Shown here one piece after another: positions 20,975 to 31,991 of a stretch of DNA of 36,149 nt. A program made the position numbers and the translations under genes. Position 1 is the first letter of the stretch. The number at the start of each line of letters is the position of its first letter. Under the pieces are notes generated by a model, which did no database searches, was not told where the DNA came from, and saw only the letters and a program-made list of their open reading frames with translations. The stretch spans positions 1-36,149 of the forward strand of contig NZ_QJUG01000075.1 of the NCBI RefSeq assembly GCF_003426775.1, given 5' to 3'. This DNA is from Allorhizocola rhizosphaerae. Its GTDB lineage: Bacteria; Actinomycetota; Actinomycetes; Mycobacteriales; Micromonosporaceae.

Positions 20975-21634
20975 TCAACAGCCGTCGTCGCCGCAGTATT
21001 CACCCGAGCCGGTCGGCGCGAGCTGGACGAAACCCGTGCGGCGCTGCACCTCGGCGATCACATCGCGGAACGTGGCCGGGTCCTGCGCGCCGCTGATCGC
21101 GTACTTGCCCTCGAAGACGAACATCGGCACACCGGTCACGCCCAACTCGCGAGCCGTCGCGAGCTCCGACCGGACCTCCTCGACGCCCTCGCCGCCCGCG
21201 AGATCGATCGGCAACTCCAGTTCGAGGGCCAGCCGGTCGAGCACCTCGTGCGAGCCCACATCGAGCCCGTCGGTGAAGTGCGCCTTGTGCAGGGCCTCGA
21301 CAACCGGCCGCTGGTCGAGCCCGAGCGCGCCCGCCTTCCAGATCAGACGGTGCGCGTCGAACGTGGCGGCGGCCACGGCCCGGTCGAAGTTCATGGTGAG
21401 ACCCTCGTCACGGGCAACGGAAGTGACGCGCTCGAACATGCGCCGCGCGTTGGCCTCGCCGCCGTAGCGCGAACCGAGCCACTCCACGAGTGGGGTGCCC
21501 CCGGACTGCACCGACGGATCGAGCTGAAACGCACGCCAGCGCACCTTCGACGCCGGGGGCAGTGCTTTGAACAGGCGGCGCTCGCCGATCCAGCACCACG
21601 GGCACACGACATCCGAGTAGACCTCAATGTTCAC
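20975..21634 (-). CDS. frnE: DsbA-family oxidoreductase, FrnE type
   Basis: 219-residue thioredoxin-fold protein with active site CPWC (Cys11, Cys14), a helical insertion, and the cis-proline loop GVTGVPMFVF. The C terminus EYCGDDGC carries a second cysteine pair, CX4C (214 and 219). Deinococcus FrnE is described with exactly such an extra C-terminal CX4C pair, which supports this subfamily. No signal peptide, so it is expected in the cytoplasm acting on thiols or disulfides. GTG start at 21634 preceded by AGGGG. Confidence 0.9.
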   Translation of the reverse strand: MNIEVYSDVVCPWCWIGERRLFKALPPASKVRWRAFQLDPSVQSGGTPLVEWLGSRYGGEANARRMFERVTSVARDEGLTMNFDRAVAAATFDAHRLIWKAGALGLDQRPVVEALHKAHFTDGLDVGSHEVLDRLALELELPIDLAGGEGVEEVRSELATARELGVTGVPMFVFEGKYAISGAQDPATFRDVIAEVQRRTGFVQLAPTGSGEYCGDDGC

Positions 21635-21700
21635 GACCCCTGCAACAGAGGATGACTGTTCAACAATTCCCGCCGCCGAGTGTGTGTAAAACTACGCGAC

Positions 21701-22456
21701 GTGGCTTGGAGCAGGTATGTAGCCCTGGGGGACAGCTTCACGGAGGGCCTGGACGATCCATACCCCGACGGCATGGGCACCGGCTATCGCGGCTGGGCCG
21801 ATCTCGTGGCTGCCCACCTCAACGTCGAATACGCCAACCTCGCCATCCGTGGGCGGCTGTTCGACGCGGTCGTGGCCGAGCAGGTCGAGCCGGCCCTGGC
21901 GATGCAGGCCGATCTGATCAGCTTCGCCGCCGGGGGCAACGACATCCTGCGCCGCCGGTGCGACCCGCCTGCCCTGATGGCGCGCTTCGCGAAAACCATT
22001 GAGCTTTTTCGCGGTACCGGTGCCGACGTGCTGGTGTTCCGGTTCGCCAACGTGCTGTCGCGCCTGCCGGGCAACCGCATGATCGGGCCGCGGGTGCGCT
22101 ATCTCAACCAGGCGGTGGGCGAGATCACGGAGCAATCCGGCGCGCGCCTGGTCGACCTGTGGTCCGACCCCGAGTACGACAACCCCGCCCTGTGGAGCGT
22201 CGACCGCCTGCACCTGTCGGCAGCCGGCCACCTGCGCACGGCCGCGCATGTCCTTGCCGCGCTTGACGTTTCGCCCCCAAGCCAGTGGTGGGATGTGCCC
22301 GGCTGGCCCCCGCCGAGGTCGTGGGCTGCCGCGCGGGCCGCCGACGCGGCGTGGGCCGCACGCCACCTCGCACCGTGGATCAAGCGTCGGCTCACGGGCA
22401 GGTCCTCTGGCGACGGGATCCAGGCGAAGCGGCCGAGCCTGCGCCCGATGGCTTGA
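21701..22456 (+). CDS. SGNH/GDSL-family hydrolase
   Basis: A 251-residue esterase/lipase-fold protein. Block I is YVALGDSFTEG (nucleophile Ser), block III is SFAAGGNDILRR (GxND), and block V is DRLHLSAAGH (Asp and His of the catalytic dyad). No export signal; a basic C-terminal tail. The substrate is unknown. GTG at 21701 (VAWSRYVALGDS) is chosen because TAAAAC ends 8 bases upstream, a leaderless arrangement. A GTG at 21680 would add 7 residues. Two hairpins follow the gene. Confidence 0.88.
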   Translation: MAWSRYVALGDSFTEGLDDPYPDGMGTGYRGWADLVAAHLNVEYANLAIRGRLFDAVVAEQVEPALAMQADLISFAAGGNDILRRRCDPPALMARFAKTIELFRGTGADVLVFRFANVLSRLPGNRMIGPRVRYLNQAVGEITEQSGARLVDLWSDPEYDNPALWSVDRLHLSAAGHLRTAAHVLAALDVSPPSQWWDVPGWPPPRSWAAARAADAAWAARHLAPWIKRRLTGRSSGDGIQAKRPSLRPMA

Positions 22457-22508
22457 CGCCGGCCGAGCACGCGTGTGCCCCCGAGCACACATGCGCCAAC
22501 GGGCCCCG

Positions 22509-22567
22509 GGCCGCGGCACACAGCTGCCGCGGCCGAACCCCCTCGCGGTCAGACAGTTCCTGACCGC
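22509..22567 (+). terminator. Two consecutive hairpins after the SGNH hydrolase gene
   Basis: Stem 1 is GGCCGCGGCA/TGCCGCGGCC (22509-22534, loop of 6). Stem 2 is GCGGTCAG/CTGACCGC (22545-22567, loop of 7). Both are perfect and together probably terminate transcription. The remaining gap to 22695 contains a TAGGAT at 22655-22660 that could be the -10 of the next gene. Confidence 0.7.
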
Positions 22568-22695
22568 CCCCGCTGAGAAGTCAGGGTGCCCAACCGGTGG
22601 CGGTGCGTCCACAAGATTCGGTTCCAACCTAAAGACGCACGTCACGACTGTGGTTAGGATCTTTCAAACCCTCGAAACCCCTGGATTTGTCGCAG

Positions 22696-23685
22696 ATGCT
22701 CAGGATCTTCTTCACGGCGCAGGACATCGCCCGGACCCGGCTTGCCCCCGCACCGGATCCGCTGTGGGAGATCGTGCTCAGCCTGCAGATGCTCCGCGGC
22801 CAGCGTGGCGATCTGCTGTTCTCGCAGTGGCGCCGGGAGACCGCGCGGACGCTGCGCCGCGCCGAGCTGGGCCCGCGGCTGGAACTGCTATTGGCCCTGG
22901 CTCCCGAGCTCGGGTACTTCCCCGACTTCATCACGCCGGACGATTCGCTGCGCGGCATGGAGTACGGCCTGGAGGCGATCCGCAGCGCGCCGAACGAGAC
23001 CATGCGCCACGAGCTGGCCCTGCTTGAGCACAGCCAGCTGCTGCGCACCGGCAAGCGGCTGCCGGCCGGCGCGACGCGACTGGCCCGAGGCGAGCCCGCG
23101 GCCGTGACCGAGCTCACGCAGACCATGCGGGAGTATTACGAGCTGGCGATCCAGCCGCACCAGCGCGGGATCGAGGCCGCCGTCCAGGCCGACCGCAACC
23201 TGCGCCTGGACGCGTTCGCCCAGGCCGGGATCGAGGGCCTGCTGGCCAGCCTGCGCCCGATGATGACGTGGAACGCGGGCGAGCTGCAGGTGCACGGCCA
23301 TCGCGACCAGGAGATCCACCTGGATGGGCGCGGTCTGCTGATCATCCCGTCGTATTTCTGCGTCAACCATCCCATGACGATGTTCGATCCCACGCTCCCG
23401 CCGGTCCTGATCTACCCGGTGTCCCGTTCGCCGGCGAACCTGCCGCACGGTCAGCGGGTCGCGCTCGCCGGGCTGATCGGGCAGACCCGCGCGGCCATGC
23501 TGGAAGCGATCGCGGGCGGGTGCACGACCTCCGAACTGGCCCGCCGCGTCGGCGTCTCGGCCGCGTCGGCCAGCGAGCACGCCGCGATCCTGCGCAGCGC
23601 CAGGCTCATCACGAGCCATCGCGACCGCAATCGCATGGTGCATCACGTGACCCGGCTGGGCCACGCCCTGCTCAACGGGCTGTGA
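22696..23685 (+). CDS. ArsR-type winged-helix regulator with DUF5937-like N-terminal domain
   Basis: A 329-residue protein. The N-terminal region MLRIFFTAQDIARTRLAPAP is followed by DPLWEIVLSLQMLRGQ, a pattern I associate with the DUF5937 family of actinobacterial ArsR-like regulators. A long helical middle region follows. The C-terminal winged helix (about 275-325) reads TTSELARRVGVSAASASEHA, then AILRSARLITSHRDRNRMVH. It has no metal-binding CxC typical of true ArsR. The ATG at 22696 is preferred over TTG at 22687 because the family begins at this methionine; no ribosome site is visible for either. Target unknown. Confidence 0.85.
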   Translation: MLRIFFTAQDIARTRLAPAPDPLWEIVLSLQMLRGQRGDLLFSQWRRETARTLRRAELGPRLELLLALAPELGYFPDFITPDDSLRGMEYGLEAIRSAPNETMRHELALLEHSQLLRTGKRLPAGATRLARGEPAAVTELTQTMREYYELAIQPHQRGIEAAVQADRNLRLDAFAQAGIEGLLASLRPMMTWNAGELQVHGHRDQEIHLDGRGLLIIPSYFCVNHPMTMFDPTLPPVLIYPVSRSPANLPHGQRVALAGLIGQTRAAMLEAIAGGCTTSELARRVGVSAASASEHAAILRSARLITSHRDRNRMVHHVTRLGHALLNGL

Positions 23686-23693
23686 AACCTGGG

Positions 23694-23721
23694 TGCAACC
23701 GGGCCCTTTCCCTTCGCGTGT
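23694..23721 (+). promoter_or_regulatory. ECF-type promoter of sigma cassette 1
   Basis: TGCAACC (23694-23700), 15 bases, GCGTGT (23716-23721). The same two elements with the same spacing precede cassette 2 (25132-25159), while the sequence between them is unrelated. AAC in the -35 is the hallmark of ECF sigma factor promoters, so autoregulation is likely. Confidence 0.65.
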
Positions 23722-23773
23722 ACGAGGTGCTTCAAGGCAGGGGAGTTCATCCGGTACAGGAAGGAAGGGCAGT

Positions 23774-24307
23774 GTGACGGTCATGGCGGCAGCCGCGACA
23801 ATACCGATCGCCGAATCCCAGCGGGATTTCGACGACCTATATGCCGTGGCATATCAAGGGCTGACGCTTCAGCTCTACGCATATCTCGGCGATCTGTCCG
23901 AGGCACAGGACGTCGTGCAGGAGGCGTTCTGCCGGGCGTATTCCAAATGGAAGACCATCAGCGGGTACCAGGAACCGGCCGCATGGGTGCGCCGAGTGGC
24001 GTGGAATCTGGCCACGAGCCGGTTTCGTAAGCAGAAGGTGGCCGCGACGTTCTGGCGCAAGCAGCGGGTCGAGCACCTCGAGGGTCCGTCGCCCGACCGG
24101 GTGGCGCTGACCCGGGCACTGGCGAAAATCCCGGCGCAGCAACGCAGGGCGGTGGTCCTGCACTACATGGCGCAACTGTCCATCGTGGAGATCGCCGAGC
24201 AGGAGGGTGTCGCTGAGGGCACCGTGAAGAGCTGGCTGAGCCGGGGCAGGGCCGCGCTCGGGCAGCAGTTGCAAGACCGGAAGGCGAAGGGGCGTAACGA
24301 TGTCTGA
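23774..24307 (+). CDS. SigE-family sigma factor, cassette 1
   Basis: A 177-residue ECF-type sigma factor. Region 2 is LQLYAYLGDLSEAQDVVQEA with WVRRVAWNLATSRFRKQK. Region 4 is IPAQQRRAVVLHYMAQLSIV with the helix-turn-helix GVAEGTVKSWLSRGRAAL. The GTG at 23774 lies 4 bases after AAGGAAGGG; the longer frame upstream has no sigma homology. It overlaps the membrane-protein gene by 8 bp. It is closely similar along its length to the sigma factor of cassette 2, indicating tandem duplication. No extended C-terminal domain. Confidence 0.93.
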   Translation: MTVMAAAATIPIAESQRDFDDLYAVAYQGLTLQLYAYLGDLSEAQDVVQEAFCRAYSKWKTISGYQEPAAWVRRVAWNLATSRFRKQKVAATFWRKQRVEHLEGPSPDRVALTRALAKIPAQQRRAVVLHYMAQLSIVEIAEQEGVAEGTVKSWLSRGRAALGQQLQDRKAKGRNDV

Positions 24308-25064
24308 GCACTACGACGAACTGATCGGTGAGGCATTCGGCGAGTTCACCAGCGCGGCGGCGCCGTCGGTGCGCGCGGCCGGGACGGCTGCGGTGCGAAG
24401 CACGGTGGCGCACCGGCGCAAAGCGCGGCTCATGACCTTCAGCGTGCTCGGCGCATTGCTGCTCGCTGTCCCGGTGACGGCGCTGGCAGCCAACCCGTGG
24501 GGCAACAACGGCCCGCCCCACATGGCGGCCTCCGACGGGCCCACGACGCCGGTCCCGTCGCCATCGGCCGAACCGAGCCCGCCCCCGCCGCGACAGGTGC
24601 AGTCGCCCGATGGCCGGATCACGCTGGACCAGCTGACCAGTGTGGACGTGACCGTGCCCGCCTGGGCCAAGGACTTCGCCCGGTGCAAGAGCGGCTCGGT
24701 GCGGCTGAAGAAGACCGGTCCCGCGCAAAACGATCTGGTGGTCAACGCCGTGGTGCACACCAATCTGGACTCGGATCCGCAACTGGAGACGGCCGCCGTG
24801 CTCCTCTGCCTGTCCGGTGACCCGAGCCCGGAGATGGTGGTGGCGTTCGACCGGGACCACGACGGGAAGATCGTCACGCTCGGGCGCATCCTGGGCGGCG
24901 GTGGCTGGGACGACGTCGACTTCGTGCAGACCATGTCGGCCCGGCCGGACGGCGGGATCAACGTGCGCGCCTGCATCGGCGGGTGCGGGTCGGACCCGAC
25001 CGACAACATGTACCAGAACCGCGAATACGCCTGGGACGGGAGCGAATTCGCCCGGGTGAAGTGA
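24300..25064 (+). CDS. Single-pass membrane protein paired with sigma factor, cassette 1
   Basis: 254 residues. The cytoplasmic head (1-45) begins MSEHYDELIGEAFGEF and ends with basic HRRKAR. A membrane helix is at 46-64, followed by a Pro/Ser linker (about 80-100) and an outer domain. That domain contains HTNLDSDPQLETAAVLLC and VVAFDRDHDGKIVTLGRI, and closes with YAWDGSEFARVK. The D-x-D-x-D pattern recalls calcium-binding FG-GAP/VCBS-like repeats; this is a guess. It carries six cysteines or fewer, mostly in the outer domain, and lacks the zinc anti-sigma motif. Coupling to the sigma gene suggests an anti-sigma or sensor role. Confidence 0.85.
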   Translation: MSEHYDELIGEAFGEFTSAAAPSVRAAGTAAVRSTVAHRRKARLMTFSVLGALLLAVPVTALAANPWGNNGPPHMAASDGPTTPVPSPSAEPSPPPPRQVQSPDGRITLDQLTSVDVTVPAWAKDFARCKSGSVRLKKTGPAQNDLVVNAVVHTNLDSDPQLETAAVLLCLSGDPSPEMVVAFDRDHDGKIVTLGRILGGGGWDDVDFVQTMSARPDGGINVRACIGGCGSDPTDNMYQNREYAWDGSEFARVK

Positions 25065-25082
25065 CACTGACAGCAGTTGACC

Positions 25083-25110
25083 GGGGCCTCGCCGATCGGC
25101 GGGGCCCCTT
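25083..25110 (+). terminator. Terminator between the two sigma cassettes
   Basis: Stem GGGGCCTCGCC/GGCGGGGCCCC (25083-25108, one G-T pair) around GATC, followed by TT. It separates cassette 1 from the promoter of cassette 2. Confidence 0.8.
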
Positions 25111-25131
25111 AGCGTACCCAATAAAGATCTT

Positions 25132-25159
25132 TGCAACCGACCACGGACAGCATGCGTGT
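25132..25159 (+). promoter_or_regulatory. ECF-type promoter of sigma cassette 2
   Basis: TGCAACC (25132-25138), 15 bases, GCGTGT (25154-25159), identical in elements and spacing to the promoter at 23694. The predicted transcript start lies about 35 bases before the sigma gene. Confidence 0.65.
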
Positions 25160-25201
25160 TGCCGGTGCGCTCCCATCGGAGCAGCAGAGAGGAACGGCGA
25201 G

Positions 25202-25738
25202 ATGGAGCATGTCATGGTGAGTGGGGCGGCGCCACCACTGTCCAAAGTGGCCGAAGCCGCACGCCGCGATTTCGACGAGTTCTACGCGGCGACGTTTCAA
25301 TCGTTGAGGTCGCAGCTGTACGCGTATCTCGGTGATCGCGCCGAAGCGCAGGATGTGGTGCAGGAGGCATACTGTCGCGCCTTCGCGCGCTGGAAAAGGA
25401 TCAGCACGTATGACGACCCGGTCGCCTGGGTCCGCCGGGTGGCGTGGAACCTCGCCACAAGCCGCTTCCGCAAGCAGCGGTCGGCCACCACGTTTCTGCG
25501 CAGACAACGCGAACAGCACGCCGACGGCCCATCGCCGGACCGGGTGGCGCTCGTGCGCGCGCTCGCGGCCATCCCCGAGCGGTTGCGCAAGGCCGTTGTC
25601 CTGCACTACATCGGGCAACTGTCGGTCGGCGAGATCGCGCTGCAGGAGGGCGTCGCCGAGGGCACGGTGAAGAGCTGGTTGTCGCGCGGCCGGGCCGCGC
25701 TGGGCGAGCAATTGAGCGACAAAGGGAACCGGAGGTAA
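25202..25738 (+). CDS. SigE-family sigma factor, cassette 2
   Basis: A 178-residue paralogue of the cassette 1 sigma factor. Region 2 is SQLYAYLGDRAEAQDVVQEA with the identical block WVRRVAWNLATSRFRKQ. Region 4 ends in the shared helix-turn-helix EGVAEGTVKSWLSRGRAAL. The recognition helices of the two proteins are the same, so they should read the same promoters. The regions differ mainly around residues 100-120 and at the N terminus. The ATG at 25202 follows AGAGGA. The membrane-protein gene starts 2 bp after its stop. Confidence 0.93.
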   Translation: MEHVMVSGAAPPLSKVAEAARRDFDEFYAATFQSLRSQLYAYLGDRAEAQDVVQEAYCRAFARWKRISTYDDPVAWVRRVAWNLATSRFRKQRSATTFLRRQREQHADGPSPDRVALVRALAAIPERLRKAVVLHYIGQLSVGEIALQEGVAEGTVKSWLSRGRAALGEQLSDKGNRR

Positions 25739-25740
25739 TC

Positions 25741-26844
25741 ATGTCTGAGCACTACGAGGAACTGATCGGCGGAGCGCTGGACGAGTTCCGCTACGCGGAA
25801 GCACTTGAGGGGGCGCCCACGGGCGGATCGGCGGCCGTGCGGGCCAAGGTGGCACACCGCCGCAGGGTGCGCATCACGACATACAGCGTGCTGGGGGCAT
25901 TGTTGATCGCCTTGCCGGTGGCGGCGTTCGCGGCCAATCCGCGCGGCAACAACAGCCCGCCGGCCGATGTGCTGGAGACGCCGACACCGGCCCCGGTCGT
26001 CACCACACCACCCCCGCATTCGCCGTTGCCGGAGGTCAAGGACGGGCGCTTCACGGTTGAGGAGCTGCTGGGCGCCCCTGCGCCGACGTTCGACGAGCCG
26101 GCCTGCGGCAAGAAGATCGTGGCCAAGCCGGCGCCCGGGGTGGAAAGCAAGGTGTTCGCCAAGGAGGTGGCGCACGCCAACCTCGACTCCGATCCGCAAC
26201 TGGAGACCGCGGCCCTGCTGGTGTGCACCACCGACGACGAGTCCACCCGGGTCGCGGCCTACGACCGCGACGCCGAGGGAAAGGTCGTCATGCTGGGCGT
26301 CGTCGTCGGCATGCTGGGCGAACGCGGCATGCACGATGTCATCGGGATCAAACCCCGGACGGCGGGCGGGATCATCGCGACCGTGCACTACAGCACGTAC
26401 AGCCCGGAGCCGGGCGAGCCGGATCCGCAAGAGCGCGAGTACGCGTGGAACGGCAGCAAGTTCACCCAGGTCGGTGGGCCCACCACGTTCGCACCGGCCA
26501 AGACCGACCTCTCGCTGACCGCGAGCCCGCTGCGGCTGGGCCCGGCCCAGAACGGCAAACGGACCGGGACGGTGACGCTGACGCTGACGGGCAGCGGCCC
26601 CGACGACTCGCATTCGATCGACATCGAGCTGTCCACCGGCCATCGGATCACGATCGAGGGCCATCCGGGCAACGTGATCAAGCACGGACCGGTCAAGGCC
26701 GAGGAGACCAGGACGATCACCCTGACCGTGACGATCGAGGTCGGCTCCGGCCAGTCGCCGCTGAGCATCGGCGCGGGGATCACCTCGTACGCCAATGACT
26801 CGAACCGGGACAACAACTTCGTCACCATCGAGGTCACCGAATGA
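25741..26844 (+). CDS. Single-pass membrane protein paired with sigma factor, cassette 2
   Basis: 367 residues, a longer paralogue of the 24300 product. The head begins MSEHYEELIGGALDEF and carries VAHRRRVR (38-44), followed by a membrane helix at 47-65 and a Pro-rich linker. The same outer domain follows, with HANLDSDPQLETAALLVC (145-162), AAYDRDAEGKVVMLG and YAWNGSKFTQVGG at about 234-246. A further beta domain (255-367) is added, starting KTDLSLTASPLRLGPAQNGK and ending YANDSNRDNNFVTIEVTE. It looks like a CARDB/Ig-like fold. GGAGG precedes the ATG. Four bases overlap the lipoprotein gene. Confidence 0.85.
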   Translation: MSEHYEELIGGALDEFRYAEALEGAPTGGSAAVRAKVAHRRRVRITTYSVLGALLIALPVAAFAANPRGNNSPPADVLETPTPAPVVTTPPPHSPLPEVKDGRFTVEELLGAPAPTFDEPACGKKIVAKPAPGVESKVFAKEVAHANLDSDPQLETAALLVCTTDDESTRVAAYDRDAEGKVVMLGVVVGMLGERGMHDVIGIKPRTAGGIIATVHYSTYSPEPGEPDPQEREYAWNGSKFTQVGGPTTFAPAKTDLSLTASPLRLGPAQNGKRTGTVTLTLTGSGPDDSHSIDIELSTGHRITIEGHPGNVIKHGPVKAEETRTITLTVTIEVGSGQSPLSIGAGITSYANDSNRDNNFVTIEVTE

Positions 26845-27269
26845 GAGCCGCGCTGCCGGCTGTGCTGCTGCTCGCCCTCGCCGCGTGCGAGGGCGAGCAG
26901 CCCGTGCGTAGCGGGCTGGTCGGCCCCAGCAGCGAGCTGAAGATCGAGGAGATCAAGCCGGAGTGTGCCCAGGGGCGCGTGCAGAACGTGGCCTACAGCA
27001 ACCTCGATGACGATCCGGCGTTCGAGACGGCCGCCTATGTGCTGTGCGAGAAGGACTGGCATATCGCCGCTTACGCACGCGACCAGAAGACCGGCGACAT
27101 CATCCGGCTCGGCGTTGTCCTGCAGAGTGGGCCGGGCGAACAGATGCTCAGCATGAGCCAGCGCATCTGGGGCGGGGTCTTCGTCGTGGTCGGCTTCGAC
27201 GACGGGCGCCCCCGCGAAAGCCGTGAGTATGCCTGGACGGGCAGCAAATACGCCCAGGTGGGCGGCTGA
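26841..27269 (+). CDS. Lipoprotein sharing the outer domain of the sigma-paired membrane proteins
   Basis: 142 residues. A signal peptide MRAALPAVLLLALAAC gives a canonical lipobox (LAAC, Cys16), so the mature protein should be a lipid-anchored surface protein. The body repeats the same domain without any cytoplasmic part. It has YSNLDDDPAFETAAYVLC, a segment AAYARDQKTGDIIRLG, and a C terminus YAWTGSKYAQVGG nearly identical to the cassette 2 protein. The ATGA overlap with the preceding gene shows co-expression. It may compete with or modulate the membrane sensors. Confidence 0.85.
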   Translation: MRAALPAVLLLALAACEGEQPVRSGLVGPSSELKIEEIKPECAQGRVQNVAYSNLDDDPAFETAAYVLCEKDWHIAAYARDQKTGDIIRLGVVLQSGPGEQMLSMSQRIWGGVFVVVGFDDGRPRESREYAWTGSKYAQVGG

Positions 27270-27273
27270 GACC

Positions 27274-27323
27274 GGGCCCGCTCCACGTCGGTCTGCCAAT
27301 CCAGGCGGAGCGGGCCCCCTTTT
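27274..27323 (+). terminator. Terminator of the sigma/membrane-protein operon
   Basis: Perfect 11-bp stem GGGCCCGCTCC (27274-27284) with GGAGCGGGCCC (27307-27317), a 22-base loop, followed by CC and TTTT. This is a classical intrinsic terminator. Confidence 0.85.
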
Positions 27324-27325
27324 CT

Positions 27326-27357
27326 CGTCGATCATGAACTTACGTCCATGTTCGACG
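27326..27357. repeat. Imperfect palindrome upstream of the HSP90 gene
   Basis: Two 14-base arms (27326-27339 and 27344-27357) pair at 12 of 14 positions around TTAC. It could be a second weak terminator stem or an operator. Confidence 0.5.
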
Positions 27358-27400
27358 GCGTGTCGTGACACTAACTTCTTGGTCAACATCGGCTGGCCCC

Positions 27401-27431
27401 GGTGGACCCGGTTGGGCTGACCGGGTCCACC
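27401..27431. promoter_or_regulatory. Perfect 12-7-12 inverted repeat before the HSP90 gene
   Basis: GGTGGACCCGGT (27401-27412) and ACCGGGTCCACC (27420-27431) flank 7 bases, ending 31 bases before the GTG. A TACGGT at 27450-27455 lies 7 bases before the start and is a candidate -10, so the repeat would cover or abut the -35. It is neither CIRCE (TTAGCACTC) nor the HspR box (CTTGAGT), so any regulator is unknown. Confidence 0.55.
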
Positions 27432-27462
27432 GCGAGGCTCGAATACGGGTACGGTTTCCCGC

Positions 27463-29199
27463 GTGAGTCACTCCTTCCAGGTCGACCTCCGCGGCGTAGT
27501 CGACCTGCTCAGCCACCACCTCTACGCCAGCCCGCGGGTCTACGTGCGCGAGTTGTTGCAAAACGCGGTCGATGCGATCACCGCCGCCGGGATCGACCAC
27601 GGGCTGGTGCGCATCGACTGCGACGGCACAGGGCTGACCATCCGCGACAACGGCATCGGGCTGACCCTGGCGCAGGTGCACGAGCTGCTGGCCACGATCG
27701 GGCGCTCGGGCAAGCGCGACGAGCTGGGCTTCGGCCGGCACGAGTTTCTGGGCCAGTTCGGCATCGGGCTGCTGTCGTGCTTCCTGGTGGCTGACGAGAT
27801 CCGGGTGGTCACGCGCAGCGGGGACGAGCCGACCGTGTACTGGACGGGGTACTCAGACGGGCGCTACGAGACCGGCGACGGCCCGGCCCGGCCCGAGCCG
27901 GGCACGACCGTCACGCTGCTGCCGCGACACGGTGAGGAGGCATGGCTGGCCGAGCCGCGCGTGCTGGAGCTGGCCCGCCTGTTCGGCTCGCTGCTGCCGG
28001 TCACTGTCCAAGTTGGACAGACGGTGGTCACGGGCCGGCCGCTGCCCTGGGATGCGGACGGCGATCGCGTGCGTTACTGCCAGGAGGTGTTCGGGTTCAC
28101 GCCCTATGACGTGATCGACCTCAACGTGCCGGAGGCGGGGCTGCGCGGGCTGGCGTTCGTGCTGCCGGCCCCGGCGAGCCCGGCAGCCCGCGCTGGGCAT
28201 CGCGTCTATCTCAAGCGCATGCTGCTGGCCGAGGGCGCCGAAGGACTGCTGCCGGAGTGGGCGTTTTTCGCGCGCTGCGTGGTGAACGCGACCGAGCTGC
28301 GCCCGACCGCGAGCCGTGAGGCGCTCTATGAGGACGGGCTGCTGGAGCAGACGCGCGAGGCGCTGGGCGCGCAACTGCGCGGCTGGCTGGTCAATCTGGC
28401 CCATCAGGATCCCGGGCGGGTCATCGACTTCCTGCGCATCCACCACGTCGGGGTGAAGGCCCTGGCGCTGCACGACGACGAGATGCTGCAGCTGGTCGCG
28501 CAGTGGTGGCCGATGGAGACCAACGTCGGGCGGCTCACGCTCAGCGAGGTGCGCGAGCGGTACCAAATAATCAGATATTGCTCAACCCTCGACGAGTTCC
28601 GGCAGCTCGCCGCGGTCGCCGCCGCCCAGCAGCTGGCCGTGGTCAACGGTGGGTACACCTACGACATGGAGCTGATAGAAAGACTTCCCGCGATGGATCC
28701 GGGATATATGGTCGACCGGCTCGACCCGAGCGACCTGACCACCCGGTTCCACGTGCTCGATCTGGCCGAAGAGCTTGACATGCGGGGCTTCCTGACCACC
28801 GCGCAGCGCACGCTCGACCGGCTGGGATGCGAGGTGGTGGTGCGCGGCTTCGACCCGGTGACGCTGCCCGCGCTCTATCTGGTCGACCGCGACGCCACGT
28901 TCCAGCGGCACCTGCGCGACACCCGCGAGGTGGCCGACGAGGCGTGGGCGGGAGTCCTTGCGGCGTTTGAACAATCGGCCGCCCAGGCGCGCCCGCAGCT
29001 GGTCGTCAACCACCGCAACGCGCTGGTGCGCCGGATCGCCTCGCTGGGCGATCCCAAACTGATGGAGCTCGCCGTTGAGGGGTTGTATGGCCAGGCGCTG
29101 CTGCTCGGCCACCACCCGCTGCGGCCCGCCGACACGGCCCTGCTCAACCGGTCGTTCCTCGGGCTGCTCGACCGGGCCGTGCTGGGAGGCGGATCATGA
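27463..29199 (+). CDS. Short HSP90-family chaperone
   Basis: 578 residues, shorter than HtpG (about 620-650). The GHKL ATP site is intact. It has RELLQNAVDAI (Glu30, Asn34), RDNGIG (Asp62, Gly66), and the lid/third motif GQFGIGLLSCF (97-107). The middle domain keeps the catalytic-arginine segment (LRPTASREALYED). The C-terminal third is divergent and has no MEEVD-like tail. GTG start without Shine-Dalgarno, with TACGGT 7 bases upstream, suggests a leaderless transcript. ATGA overlap with the TPR gene indicates coupled synthesis of chaperone and partner. Confidence 0.92.
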   Translation: MSHSFQVDLRGVVDLLSHHLYASPRVYVRELLQNAVDAITAAGIDHGLVRIDCDGTGLTIRDNGIGLTLAQVHELLATIGRSGKRDELGFGRHEFLGQFGIGLLSCFLVADEIRVVTRSGDEPTVYWTGYSDGRYETGDGPARPEPGTTVTLLPRHGEEAWLAEPRVLELARLFGSLLPVTVQVGQTVVTGRPLPWDADGDRVRYCQEVFGFTPYDVIDLNVPEAGLRGLAFVLPAPASPAARAGHRVYLKRMLLAEGAEGLLPEWAFFARCVVNATELRPTASREALYEDGLLEQTREALGAQLRGWLVNLAHQDPGRVIDFLRIHHVGVKALALHDDEMLQLVAQWWPMETNVGRLTLSEVRERYQIIRYCSTLDEFRQLAAVAAAQQLAVVNGGYTYDMELIERLPAMDPGYMVDRLDPSDLTTRFHVLDLAEELDMRGFLTTAQRTLDRLGCEVVVRGFDPVTLPALYLVDRDATFQRHLRDTREVADEAWAGVLAAFEQSAAQARPQLVVNHRNALVRRIASLGDPKLMELAVEGLYGQALLLGHHPLRPADTALLNRSFLGLLDRAVLGGGS

Positions 29200-31991
29200 C
29201 GACTTCCCCGGACCGGGTGCGCGCCCTCATCGACCAGTCGTGGGACATGCCCTATGGCGCGGCGCAGATCGCGCTCACCGAGGAGGCGATCGCGCAGGCC
29301 GACGCGATGGGCGACGACGATCTGCGGTTCGACGCGCGGATGGCCGCGACCAACGCCTATCAGCACGGTGGCGAGCCGGCCAAGGGGTTCGTGACGTTCT
29401 CGTGGTGCCTGGCGCACTATGACCGTGACCCGGCGCGCTTCGGCCATCACGAGCACCTGCTGCTCTGGTACTTCAAATACATGGTGCATTCTTTGACCCG
29501 ATTTCCTGAGGTACCGCTTGAGCGCACCTATGCCGTGCTCGACGACATGCAGCGGCGGTTCGCGCAGGGCGGGCACAGTTTGCAGACGGTGCACAAGCAT
29601 CGCTGGCTGGTCGCGATGCACATCGGCGACATGGAGGCGGCCGAAAGGCATTACGACGCATGGCAATCCGCGCCACGGGACTCCAATTCGGACTGTCAGG
29701 GGTGCGACCCGACCGATCAGGTGTGGCACCTGGCGCAGCAGGGGCGCTACGAGGAGGCGATCGCGCTCACCGGTCCCGTGCTCGCGGGCCGGCTCACCTG
29801 CGCCGAGCAGCCGCAGTCGATCCTGACTCAGCTGCTCATCCCGTACCTGCGCACGGGTCGGCTGGATGAGGCCCGAGCGGCGCATCACACGGCCTACCGG
29901 GCGATCCGGCGCAGCGTGGCCAACCTGTCCGACCTCGCCGACCACCTGTACTTCCTCGCCGTGTGCGGCAACGAGTCCTACGCGCGGGAGCTGATGGAGC
30001 GCCATCTGTCGTGGTTGGACAGACCGGCCACGCCCTATGGCGAGATGTGGTTCAGCGCGGCGGCCGCGCTGGTGCTCAGCCGCCTGGGCGAGGCGCGGCA
30101 CGCCGAATTCGCCGAGCGCGCGTTGGCTCTGGCAAAGCGCTTCGACGCGCGCAACGGCACCGGCCACCAGAGCGAGCAGGTGCGCGCCTGCCTTGCGGCG
30201 CAACCGATCGTGGCCAAGCTGCCAATGAGCCTGACCGCGCAGCTGGCGCGCCCGGCGCAGGCACCGGCTGCTCCCGCGCCCAAGGAGCGTCCAAAGGCGA
30301 CACTCGACGACGTGCCCGCCGGGGCCGGGCTGGACGAGCTGCTCGACCTCGCCGAGGACGCGCTGTGGCGGGACGACTCGGCCCGGGTCGAGGCGCTCTG
30401 GGCACGGGTCACCGAGCTCACCGGCGGTGACGACCTCACCGCCCTGCAGCGCGGGCGGGTGGCCGACCTCGCGGGCATGCGGATGTACGACGGGGACTCG
30501 CGCGAGCTGGTCGAGAAGTGGCACGAGGCCGTCCGGTGGTATGAGGCGGCGGGCGACACGATCCGGCGGGCGCGCACGCGCGGGCGCATCGGCCTGCACC
30601 GATGCCGGCACGGTGAGCCCGACCAGGGCCTGGAGCAGGTGCGTGAGACGACCGATTTCCTGCTGGCGCACGGCTCGCCCCGGGACCACGCCGGAGCGCT
30701 GCGCCGCCTCGCGGTCGCGTTGCTGCACGTGGGGGCACCGGCCGAGGCGATCGAGACCCTCGACAAGCTCGACGGCGTGCCCGAGCCCGACCCCGGCCCA
30801 CGGGTCCGCCTGCAGGCCACGATGATCCGCGCCCAGGCGCTCGGCGCCGACGGCCGGCTGGACGAGGCCCTCATCGCCGGGCAGTCGCTTGTGGACGGTG
30901 GGCGCGCGGCGGGCGAGGGCGAGCTGGTCGCGCTCGGCGAGTTCATCCTGGGCCAGGCGCACCTGTTGCGCGAGGACAGCGACGCGGCGGTTGCCGCCTA
31001 CGAGCGTGCGCTGCGCCACGCCGATCTGCCGTTCGAGCTGGTCCGCGAGGTGCGGGAACGGCTCGGCATGCTGCTGGCCGGCACGGGCCGCTCGGCCGAG
31101 GCGGTCGACGACCTCGCCTCGCTGGTGGCCCGGCTGGTCACCGAGGGGCAGGAGGCCGAGGCCGATTACGCCCGCTTCCAGCTCGCGGTGGCCCTGTTCA
31201 ACGCCGACCGGGCCAACGACGCGGCCGAGGTGGCCGAGGAGGCGCTCTACGGTGCCGAGCGCGCGGGCAGCCAGGGGCTGGCCGATCAGGTCAGGCACCT
31301 GCTCTCGGCGATCTATCAGCGTCTGGACGACCCCGGCCAGGCGCTGGCCCACCTGGACCAGCTGGCCGCCAACCTCAACGGGTTCGACCACGCACAGGCC
31401 CGCGCCAGCGTGCTGGAACAGGCCGGCGATCTGCTCTATGAGCAGGACCGCGACGGGCAGGCGGCGCAGCGGTTCGAGGCGGCCGCGGCCGCATATGACG
31501 TGGCCGGGCTGCCGGTCGACCGGCTGCGCATGCTGCGCCGGCAGGCCGTGGCCGCGATGTTCGGGTTCGGCGCCGACACGGCCCGGGAGGTGCTCGCCGC
31601 CGCCGACCGGCACGCCGCGACCCTGCCCACCCACGAGCCGGACAGCCAGTACGAGCTGGCCTGGCTGGCCCTCGACGGGGCGCGCGTGCTCGCAGGGGCC
31701 GGTGACGCCGAATCGGCGCTCGAACGAGTGCGCCCGGTGCCCGAGGCCTTCCGCTCCTTGGGATCTTTTGGCGAAGCCTTCCTCGCCGAGTTGACGATGG
31801 GCGAAGTGCTGCTCACACTGGGCCGACCCGATGCCGCGGAGCGCGTGCTGCGCGGTGTGGTCGGTGGCCTCCCGCGCGATGCGGGGGCGCTGCCCCGGGC
31901 GGCGTATGCACTGGCGCATGCGCTCGCGCAGCAGGACAAGATGGAGGAAGCACGCAAGCTGGCAGGTGAGTATGGATTCGACCTGGAATAA
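29196..31991 (+). CDS. TPR-repeat protein coupled to HSP90
   Basis: 931 residues, almost wholly helical and Ala/Glu/Leu-rich, consistent with many tetratricopeptide repeats. Recognisable units include ARTRGRIGLHRCRHGEPDQG, ALIAGQSLVDGGRAAGEGEL and SDAAVAAYERALRHADLPFE. The N-terminal 240 residues form a distinct module with SDCQGCDPTDQ (Cys167, Cys170) and LTCAEQPQ (Cys202). A Pro/Ala linker near 350-370 separates it from the repeats. No signal peptide, so it is cytoplasmic. The 4-bp overlap with the HSP90 gene suggests a co-chaperone or scaffold role; that is inference. Confidence 0.88.
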   Translation: MTTSPDRVRALIDQSWDMPYGAAQIALTEEAIAQADAMGDDDLRFDARMAATNAYQHGGEPAKGFVTFSWCLAHYDRDPARFGHHEHLLLWYFKYMVHSLTRFPEVPLERTYAVLDDMQRRFAQGGHSLQTVHKHRWLVAMHIGDMEAAERHYDAWQSAPRDSNSDCQGCDPTDQVWHLAQQGRYEEAIALTGPVLAGRLTCAEQPQSILTQLLIPYLRTGRLDEARAAHHTAYRAIRRSVANLSDLADHLYFLAVCGNESYARELMERHLSWLDRPATPYGEMWFSAAAALVLSRLGEARHAEFAERALALAKRFDARNGTGHQSEQVRACLAAQPIVAKLPMSLTAQLARPAQAPAAPAPKERPKATLDDVPAGAGLDELLDLAEDALWRDDSARVEALWARVTELTGGDDLTALQRGRVADLAGMRMYDGDSRELVEKWHEAVRWYEAAGDTIRRARTRGRIGLHRCRHGEPDQGLEQVRETTDFLLAHGSPRDHAGALRRLAVALLHVGAPAEAIETLDKLDGVPEPDPGPRVRLQATMIRAQALGADGRLDEALIAGQSLVDGGRAAGEGELVALGEFILGQAHLLREDSDAAVAAYERALRHADLPFELVREVRERLGMLLAGTGRSAEAVDDLASLVARLVTEGQEAEADYARFQLAVALFNADRANDAAEVAEEALYGAERAGSQGLADQVRHLLSAIYQRLDDPGQALAHLDQLAANLNGFDHAQARASVLEQAGDLLYEQDRDGQAAQRFEAAAAAYDVAGLPVDRLRMLRRQAVAAMFGFGADTAREVLAAADRHAATLPTHEPDSQYELAWLALDGARVLAGAGDAESALERVRPVPEAFRSLGSFGEAFLAELTMGEVLLTLGRPDAAERVLRGVVGGLPRDAGALPRAAYALAHALAQQDKMEEARKLAGEYGFDLE

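Follow-up and report, generated by a model that had tools for sequence, protein, structure and literature searches.

Do two neighbouring sigma factor genes with the same promoter core form two separate circuits, or does either one serve both? The question is raised by a contig of Allorhizocola rhizosphaerae (NZ_QJUG01000075.1, assembly GCF_003426775.1; Micromonosporaceae), of which positions 1 to 36,149 of the forward strand are referred to here as the window. A first-pass annotation, made from the sequence, had recognised two tandem units, each composed of a promoter, a gene for a SigE-family sigma factor of the extracytoplasmic function (ECF) type and a gene for a single-pass membrane protein. 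Our analysis suggests that these are probably two autoregulated ECF units whose membrane partners are anti-sigma factors of the CnrY kind with a sensing outer domain, and that each unit would be able to activate the other. This interpretation is based on protein anatomy, conservation, gene neighbourhood and natural gene fusions, from which we infer binding, inhibition, autoregulation, cross-activation and the existence of a signal. In most respects the pair looks ordinary, since its parts and its start signal are those of a widespread family; what it has in addition is a detached sensor lipoprotein and an apparent set-up for cross-activation.

Promoter elements and sigma factors

The promoter cores are exact at both sites (Table 1), whereas the spacers carry the same base at 4 of 15 positions, about the level of chance, in agreement with the first-pass description of identical elements with unlike spacers. 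The two bases that follow GTGT also differ between the promoters (AC versus TG). The same annotation regarded the shared promoter as a mark of this pair, but the element proved to be a signature of the whole family. [CT]GCAAC followed by GT at a fixed distance is found upstream of 70 of 92 related sigma factor genes from the Micromonosporaceae, compared with 14 of 814 control stretches; the spacer measures 15 bases in 69 of these 70 elements, and GT is followed by G in 66 of them. The strict form precedes 60 of the 92 genes, compared with 11 of 1596 random stretches, and none of the 92 has the mirrored motif. These genes come from 79 named loci, which are the best matches to the second sigma factor and not a random sample, and for a few of them (e.g. 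L093 and L137) the anchor was placed too far upstream, so that motif hits were lost. Of 40 cassettes that surround the nearest relatives of the membrane partners in other Micromonosporaceae, a set that overlaps with the 92 sigma factor genes, 36 are preceded by a lenient form. The genome of A. rhizosphaerae itself encodes 11 SigE-family proteins at least 44% identical to the second sigma factor, both window genes counted, and on a loose reading GCAAC and GTG lie at about the right distance upstream of eight of them (the exceptions are L026, L030 and L033), with variants such as TGCAACA (L025), a spacer one base shorter (L029) and an ending in CGTGA (L032).

As the spacers vary while both boxes are kept, the element is expected to be functional, and an element located before the very gene that encodes the sigma factor usually indicates autoregulation. 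The general rules for ECF systems comprise an AAC/CGT promoter, a co-transcribed anti-sigma factor and positive autoregulation (PMC8103513), and by sequence a conserved element of the AAC/CGT type precedes the sigma factor gene in each unit. That each sigma factor would activate its own operon, as the first-pass annotation had proposed, is well supported by the conservation of both element and spacing upstream of related genes. With this family-wide promoter it becomes possible to predict autoregulatory sites for many sigma factor genes of this type.

The two sigma factors are 66% identical. Both match Sigma70_r2 and Sigma70_r4_2 above the cut-off and, at ~180 residues, have the make-up of ECF (group IV) proteins. 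The best family for both is TIGR02983 (SigE-fam, cut-off 141.55), against which the second sigma factor (P0003) scores 143.9 bits, above the cut-off, and the first (P0001) 131.7 bits, below it. The arrangement of two sigma factor genes, each with an adjacent gene for a single-pass membrane protein, is confirmed, as is the identity of a 19-residue helix-turn-helix (HTH) stretch; the sigma2 domain segment AWVRRVAWNLATSRFRKQ and the region-4.2 segment are likewise identical in both proteins. Recent gene conversion of the HTH stretch is ruled out because 8 of its 19 codons differ, and different codons are used for 52 of the 114 residues that are identical between the two sigma factors.

Table 1. 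Coordinates of predicted features of the two units and the adjoining lipoprotein gene.
Feature	Position	Strand	Remark
Promoter 1, predicted ECF-type autoregulatory, TGCAACC-N15-GCGTGT	23694..23721	+	exact match
First sigma factor (sigma 1), SigE-family ECF, GTG start, sigma2 and sigma4 domains only	23774..24307	+	relative at the same locus in Rhizocola hellebori (L094)
Membrane partner 1: cytosolic segment of ~44 residues, one transmembrane (TM) helix, outer domain	24300..25064	+	8 nt overlap with sigma 1
Inter-unit hairpin lacking a T-run, possible terminator	25083..25108	+	-26.6 kcal/mol, z -3.66
Promoter 2, predicted ECF-type autoregulatory, TGCAACC-N15-GCGTGT	25132..25159	+	exact match
Second sigma factor (sigma 2), SigE-family ECF	25202..25738	+	sister group: lone cassettes from Dactylosporangium and from a metagenome-assembled genome (MAG) of the Micromonosporaceae
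Membrane partner 2: two helices (3-22, and 30-64 entering the TM region) with the invariant G29 between them, an outer beta domain and an additional CARDB/DUF11-like domain at the C-terminus	25741..26844	+	
Lipoprotein with a LAAC lipobox (by eye) and a free copy of the outer domain seen in the partners; lacks a cytosolic segment	26841..27269	+	ATGA overlap with partner 2
Hairpin with CTTTTCT behind it, probably terminating the second operon	27274..27317	+	63-base stretch, -33.3 kcal/mol, z -3.86

Cross-activation and insulation

Since the DNA-reading segments and the promoter cores are identical, either sigma factor should start both operons and the inputs of the two units should converge; cross-activation is therefore plausible. 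Alternatively, the units may be insulated from one another, the cores being alike simply because they are alike throughout the family, with specificity residing in anti-sigma pairing, in expression level or in bases outside the core. We consider this possible but on the unlikely side: similar elements are indeed present before most of the SigE-family genes of this genome, and the bases after GTGT do differ, but the window pair is alike in precisely the -10 core and the sigma2 and 4.2 segments. In Micromonospora insulation seems to evolve between two clades of tandem cassettes that have the -35 element and most of region 4.2 in common but differ at the -10 element and in sigma2. In clade A (19 rows) none of the 16 rows with an element has A before GT, whereas in clade B (11 rows) A is present in 9 of 9, and T then follows GTGT. 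The sigma2 domain carries NLGH in all 16 readable rows of clade A, and LARSRWRR in all 11 rows of clade B. These sigma2 residues read the -10 element. Loci that contain both clades are L110, L121, L122, L127, L131, L137, L138, L147 and L152, and both -10 forms are readable within one locus in 6 of these 9.

The Micromonospora pairs read as insulated and the A. rhizosphaerae pair as a case without insulation, common descent within each clade being a simpler part of the cause. The cassettes would provide a natural series for how duplicated sigma circuits become insulated, with a constant -35 element and region 4.2 and with joint differences in the -10 element and sigma2, which are seen between the Micromonospora tandem clades but not within the window pair.

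Membrane partners and their fused relatives

One hydrophobic helix is recognised in each partner by eye and, for the second partner, also in a structural model. The two partners are identical at 25 of 44 positions of the cytosolic part, 15 of 21 of the helix and 55 of 142 of the outer domain. Partner-like (P0002-like) proteins are present in at least 93 of 200 genomes of the family, a lower bound since no more than 13 candidates were scored per genome, and in the best-scoring loci from these 93 genomes (L045-L073) a sigma factor gene lies directly upstream in 29 of 29 cases. Of the 92 sigma factor genes, 88 have, by a loose rule, a downstream product whose first 56 residues include a basic segment; the partner profile used with this set was built from relatives alone, both window proteins being left out. 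In an alignment of 37 partners, the short segment at the N-terminus contains an invariant glycine and is followed by a basic stretch and a single TM helix. Partner lengths range from 63 to 464 residues with a median of 385.5, contig-end cases counted, among which L149 and L163 are short merely through the ends of their contigs. The partners of Rhizocola L094 (63 residues) and L118 (68 residues) stop behind the TM helix and have no outer part, and another Rhizocola partner (L098, 6492-7577) combines the usual cytosolic segment and TM helix with a different outer sequence, which has no Pfam match and is TolB-like by eye only. As the cytosolic segment and the TM helix are constant while the outer part varies, they should be the part that works towards the sigma factor.

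The four-helix N-terminal domain of class I anti-sigma factors is not seen in these proteins; the model shows two helices, the second of which enters the membrane. A cytosolic part of less than ~50 residues with two helices, the layout of class II (CnrY-like) anti-sigma factors (covered in PMC7406223 and PMC8103513), is found in both the alignment and the model. In CnrY two helices embrace sigma2 and sigma4 (PMC4598750, PMC8103513). The AlphaFold model of the second partner has a mean predicted local distance difference test score (pLDDT) of 83.9 and consists of the two helices (Table 1), a linker and two beta domains. Foldseek matches of the whole model, which served merely to name the outer folds, relate the first beta domain to integrin alpha folds at low TM-score and the second to CARDB (3idu, TM-score 0.61 by target length, rank 38).

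We propose that each sigma factor would transcribe its own operon from the TGCAACC-N15-GCGTGT element and that the operon-mate would be a membrane-anchored anti-sigma factor, the two-helix cytosolic segment of which would bind the sigma factor. With moderate confidence, the binding mode would be like that of CnrY, with two short helices embracing sigma2 and sigma4, and not that of a classical class I domain. One helix would cross the membrane, and the outer beta domain would sense an external signal, perhaps via a calcium-type acidic loop. The signal, or proteolysis, would then free the sigma factor and lead to amplification of its own operon.

That the partner acts on the sigma factor is strongly supported by ten distinct natural fusions, in which a sigma factor, a basic juxtamembrane segment, a TM helix and a varied outer part form one chain. 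Four complete examples are encoded by A. rhizosphaerae (L025, L026, L032 and L033) and the others are L266-L268, L270, L271 and L136; the L265 protein is that of L136 and was counted once, L269 was omitted as it has no HTH match, and L029, in which the frame breaks after the sigma portion, and L028, which is cut off by the end of its contig, stand outside the ten. A GCAAC element is present in the scanned upstream stretch of 8 of the 12 rows of the fusion set. Fused membrane parts are described in a review as anti-sigma factors that are released by proteolysis (PMC8999054). The outer part of L026 (P0007) has a match to the NF038083 CU044_5270 family that is below the cut-off, and our literature search found no paper on CU044_5270.

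The fusions also lend themselves to another reading, namely that the partner does not occlude the sigma factor but acts as a tether keeping it at the membrane until cleaved, or as a positive regulator. Here the sigma factor is held to the membrane with just 40-50 residues between HTH and TM helix, and what the split and fused forms share is not helix 1 but the basic segment next to the membrane. We nevertheless judge this improbable, as the split partners conserve helix 1 and G29, for which a pure tether has no need, and the operon-mates of ECF sigma factors are usually anti-sigma factors (PMC8103513). The binding mode of an anti-sigma partner cannot be identical in the two forms. From the absence of most of helix 1 in the fused proteins, this helix would seem to serve for docking in the split form.

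Outer domains and the lipoprotein

According to the first-pass annotation the partners differ in the outer domain and hence receive different inputs. The extra C-terminal domain of the second partner bears out the first of these points in part, but the outer domains proper are homologous. A third gene, absent from that annotation, encodes a lipoprotein with a homologous domain, and the claim of different inputs gives way to that of one outer domain shared by all three proteins: a free sensor beside anchored ones suggests a shared input. The outer domain was matched in 12 of the 200 family genomes (E 1e-5). Its stand-alone lipoprotein form was found in one, A. rhizosphaerae, at a threshold that could miss more diverged lipoproteins, and the other 11 matches are in frames of 389-513 residues. 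An acidic loop, NLDxDPxxE, has DVDGDGAxE as its counterpart in relatives, D151 does not vary across the alignment, and weak calmodulin matches cover the DxDxDG stretch (E 0.2 and worse); the loop may be of the calcium type.

It is tempting to combine these features into a single modular system of the Micromonosporaceae, composed of a sigma factor, a CnrY-like stub with its TM helix and a swappable or missing outer domain, in split or fused form and under one promoter class. Micromonospora neighbours would be insulated via the -10 element and sigma2, whereas in A. rhizosphaerae two sensors and a lipoprotein that possibly competes for ligand would feed one uninsulated positive loop. We regard this wider scheme as speculative and somewhat doubtful.

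Evidence against the proposed mechanism

Several observations weigh against autoregulated, cross-activating units with CnrY-like partners. The element was not found in the scanned stretch of 22 of the 92 related sigma factor genes. A genome scan for the regulon, as suggested in the first-pass annotation, does return three exact copies of TGCAACC-N15-GCGTGT in 8.8 Mb, but with one mismatch allowed there are 17 sites versus 22 for a reversed control, and thus no enrichment; the strict motif occurs 10 times versus 6 for its reversed control in this genome, and 37 versus 27 times in seven relatives summed, the cassettes themselves being included in both comparisons. Genome-wide counts of this kind prove nothing by themselves, and the weight of the motif derives from its position and conservation. 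As for the partners, none of the known anti-sigma families in Pfam and NCBIfam matches them, and a search of solved structures with the partner profile gave a best E of 0.048 and no solved anti-sigma factor. In the model of the second partner the helices have a middling pLDDT of ~71-80 and the loop 54, and the two-helix layout is in itself weak evidence for likeness to CnrY. The short span between HTH and TM helix in the fused forms contains little counterpart of helix 1. The partner tree, contrary to the sigma factor tree described below, places the two partners weakly together (76/63).

Relation to known systems

With the general class of autoregulated ECF sigma factors and membrane anti-sigma factors (PMC8103513) the units have in common the presence of sigma2 and sigma4 only, the AAC...CGT promoter, an operon-mate with one TM helix and probable positive autoregulation; they differ in that the partner has no recognised anti-sigma domain and that its cytosolic part amounts to ~44 residues. 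The likeness to CnrY consists of a short two-helix cytosolic part, here placed directly before the single TM helix, whereas no sequence match to CnrY was found and the outer beta domain is part of the same chain. The ECF39 factor sigma-E of Streptomyces coelicolor is similar in its AAC-type -35 element, in spacing and in having a lipoprotein in the system, and L,D-transpeptidases are listed among its targets (PMC6767563, PMC8999054). In contrast, the -10 element of sigma-E is mostly CGTCT (PMC6767563), and both window sites have CGTGT and so depart from the ECF39 pattern. The promoter of sigma-E is given as not being a sigma-E target, and sigma-E is governed by a two-component system (PMC6767563, PMC8999054); no such system was recognised beside the two units, where the surrounding open reading frames were read by eye only. 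ECF48, ECF52 and ECF53 carry a fused membrane extension (PMC8999054), like several paralogues in this genome, although the extensions described there have a zinc-finger domain and those found here lead from a short basic segment straight to the TM helix. Our literature search found no study of this cassette family, which is not a claim that none is in print. Short CnrY-like anti-sigma stubs in actinomycetes, accompanied by natural sigma-membrane fusions, represent a family worth testing.

Origin of the pair

The tandem arrangement, initially thought to be unusual, recurs in the family: at least two cassettes on the same strand are present in 11 of the 79 named loci and are directly adjacent in 7, while Micromonospora lupini (L110) and one other genome (L074) each have three consecutive cassettes. 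Neighbouring cassettes are not sisters in the sigma factor tree in 6 of the 7 loci with adjacent cassettes, the exception being L130, and are likely to be old pairs kept side by side.

In a sigma factor tree of 102 rows the first sigma factor groups with that of Rhizocola hellebori L094 (98/79) and the second with lone cassettes from three Dactylosporangium genomes and a Micromonosporaceae MAG (99/97). The latter grouping is kept in a 33-row tree (98/96), in which the former lacks resolution and a sister relationship between the two sigma factors is rejected (approximately unbiased test, p-AU 0.009). In the partner tree both partners fall inside a group with Dactylosporangium partners (92/84). 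The first-pass annotation had taken the pair for a duplication. It is very unlikely that the pair arose by simple recent tandem duplication with redundant function, since the rejected sister grouping, the Dactylosporangium affinity of the second sigma factor and the codon differences at identical residues outweigh the adjacency of the units, their like gene order and the weak pairing of the partners, which does not amount to confirmation.

The cassettes lie in a neighbourhood (20975-31991) that, by Pfam labels, runs from a DsbA-like protein and a GDSL/SGNH hydrolase through the cassettes to an HSP90-type ATPase and a TPR protein, and that recurs in several genera, wholly or partly and with one cassette (L080, L081, L086, L089, L094 and L096). 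As relatives at the same locus carry one cassette, a single cassette is likely to be ancestral there. The first unit appears to occupy the place of the relatives' single cassette, and the second would represent a lineage that Dactylosporangium keeps elsewhere. An older duplication followed by losses, or the arrival of the second cassette from a Dactylosporangium-like lineage, may account for this arrangement. A DUF5937/HTH gene at 22687-23685 is absent from the corresponding place in Rhizocola L094.

Hairpins and possible further targets

Of the terminator previously placed between the units, the strong hairpin was verified (Table 1), and its role as a terminator is plausible, but it has no T-run, and a simple terminator scan reported neither this hairpin nor the one behind the second operon, and no plus-strand terminator between the units.

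The third exact copy of the promoter (L001, 1501-1528, contig C279 of the same genome) lies before a gene for a lipoprotein with YkuD L,D-transpeptidase and peptidoglycan-binding domains. A looser element, for which no shuffle control was run, is present in 26 of the 30 L,D-transpeptidase loci taken from 41 listed matches (the A. rhizosphaerae locus included), although that of L221 lies inside a coding stretch. These elements end in CGTCT in 19 cases and in CGTGT in three (L196, which is the A. rhizosphaerae locus, L197 and L224). The L,D-transpeptidase gene may be a target of sigma-E rather than of the sigma factors described here, and we mention it as a suggestive additional target without claiming it as one. 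Of the other strict sites, C31 falls within a reading frame and C309 has no gene start visible downstream. Because the strict motif scarcely exceeds its reversed control outside the cassettes, these may act as loops that are small and almost self-contained.

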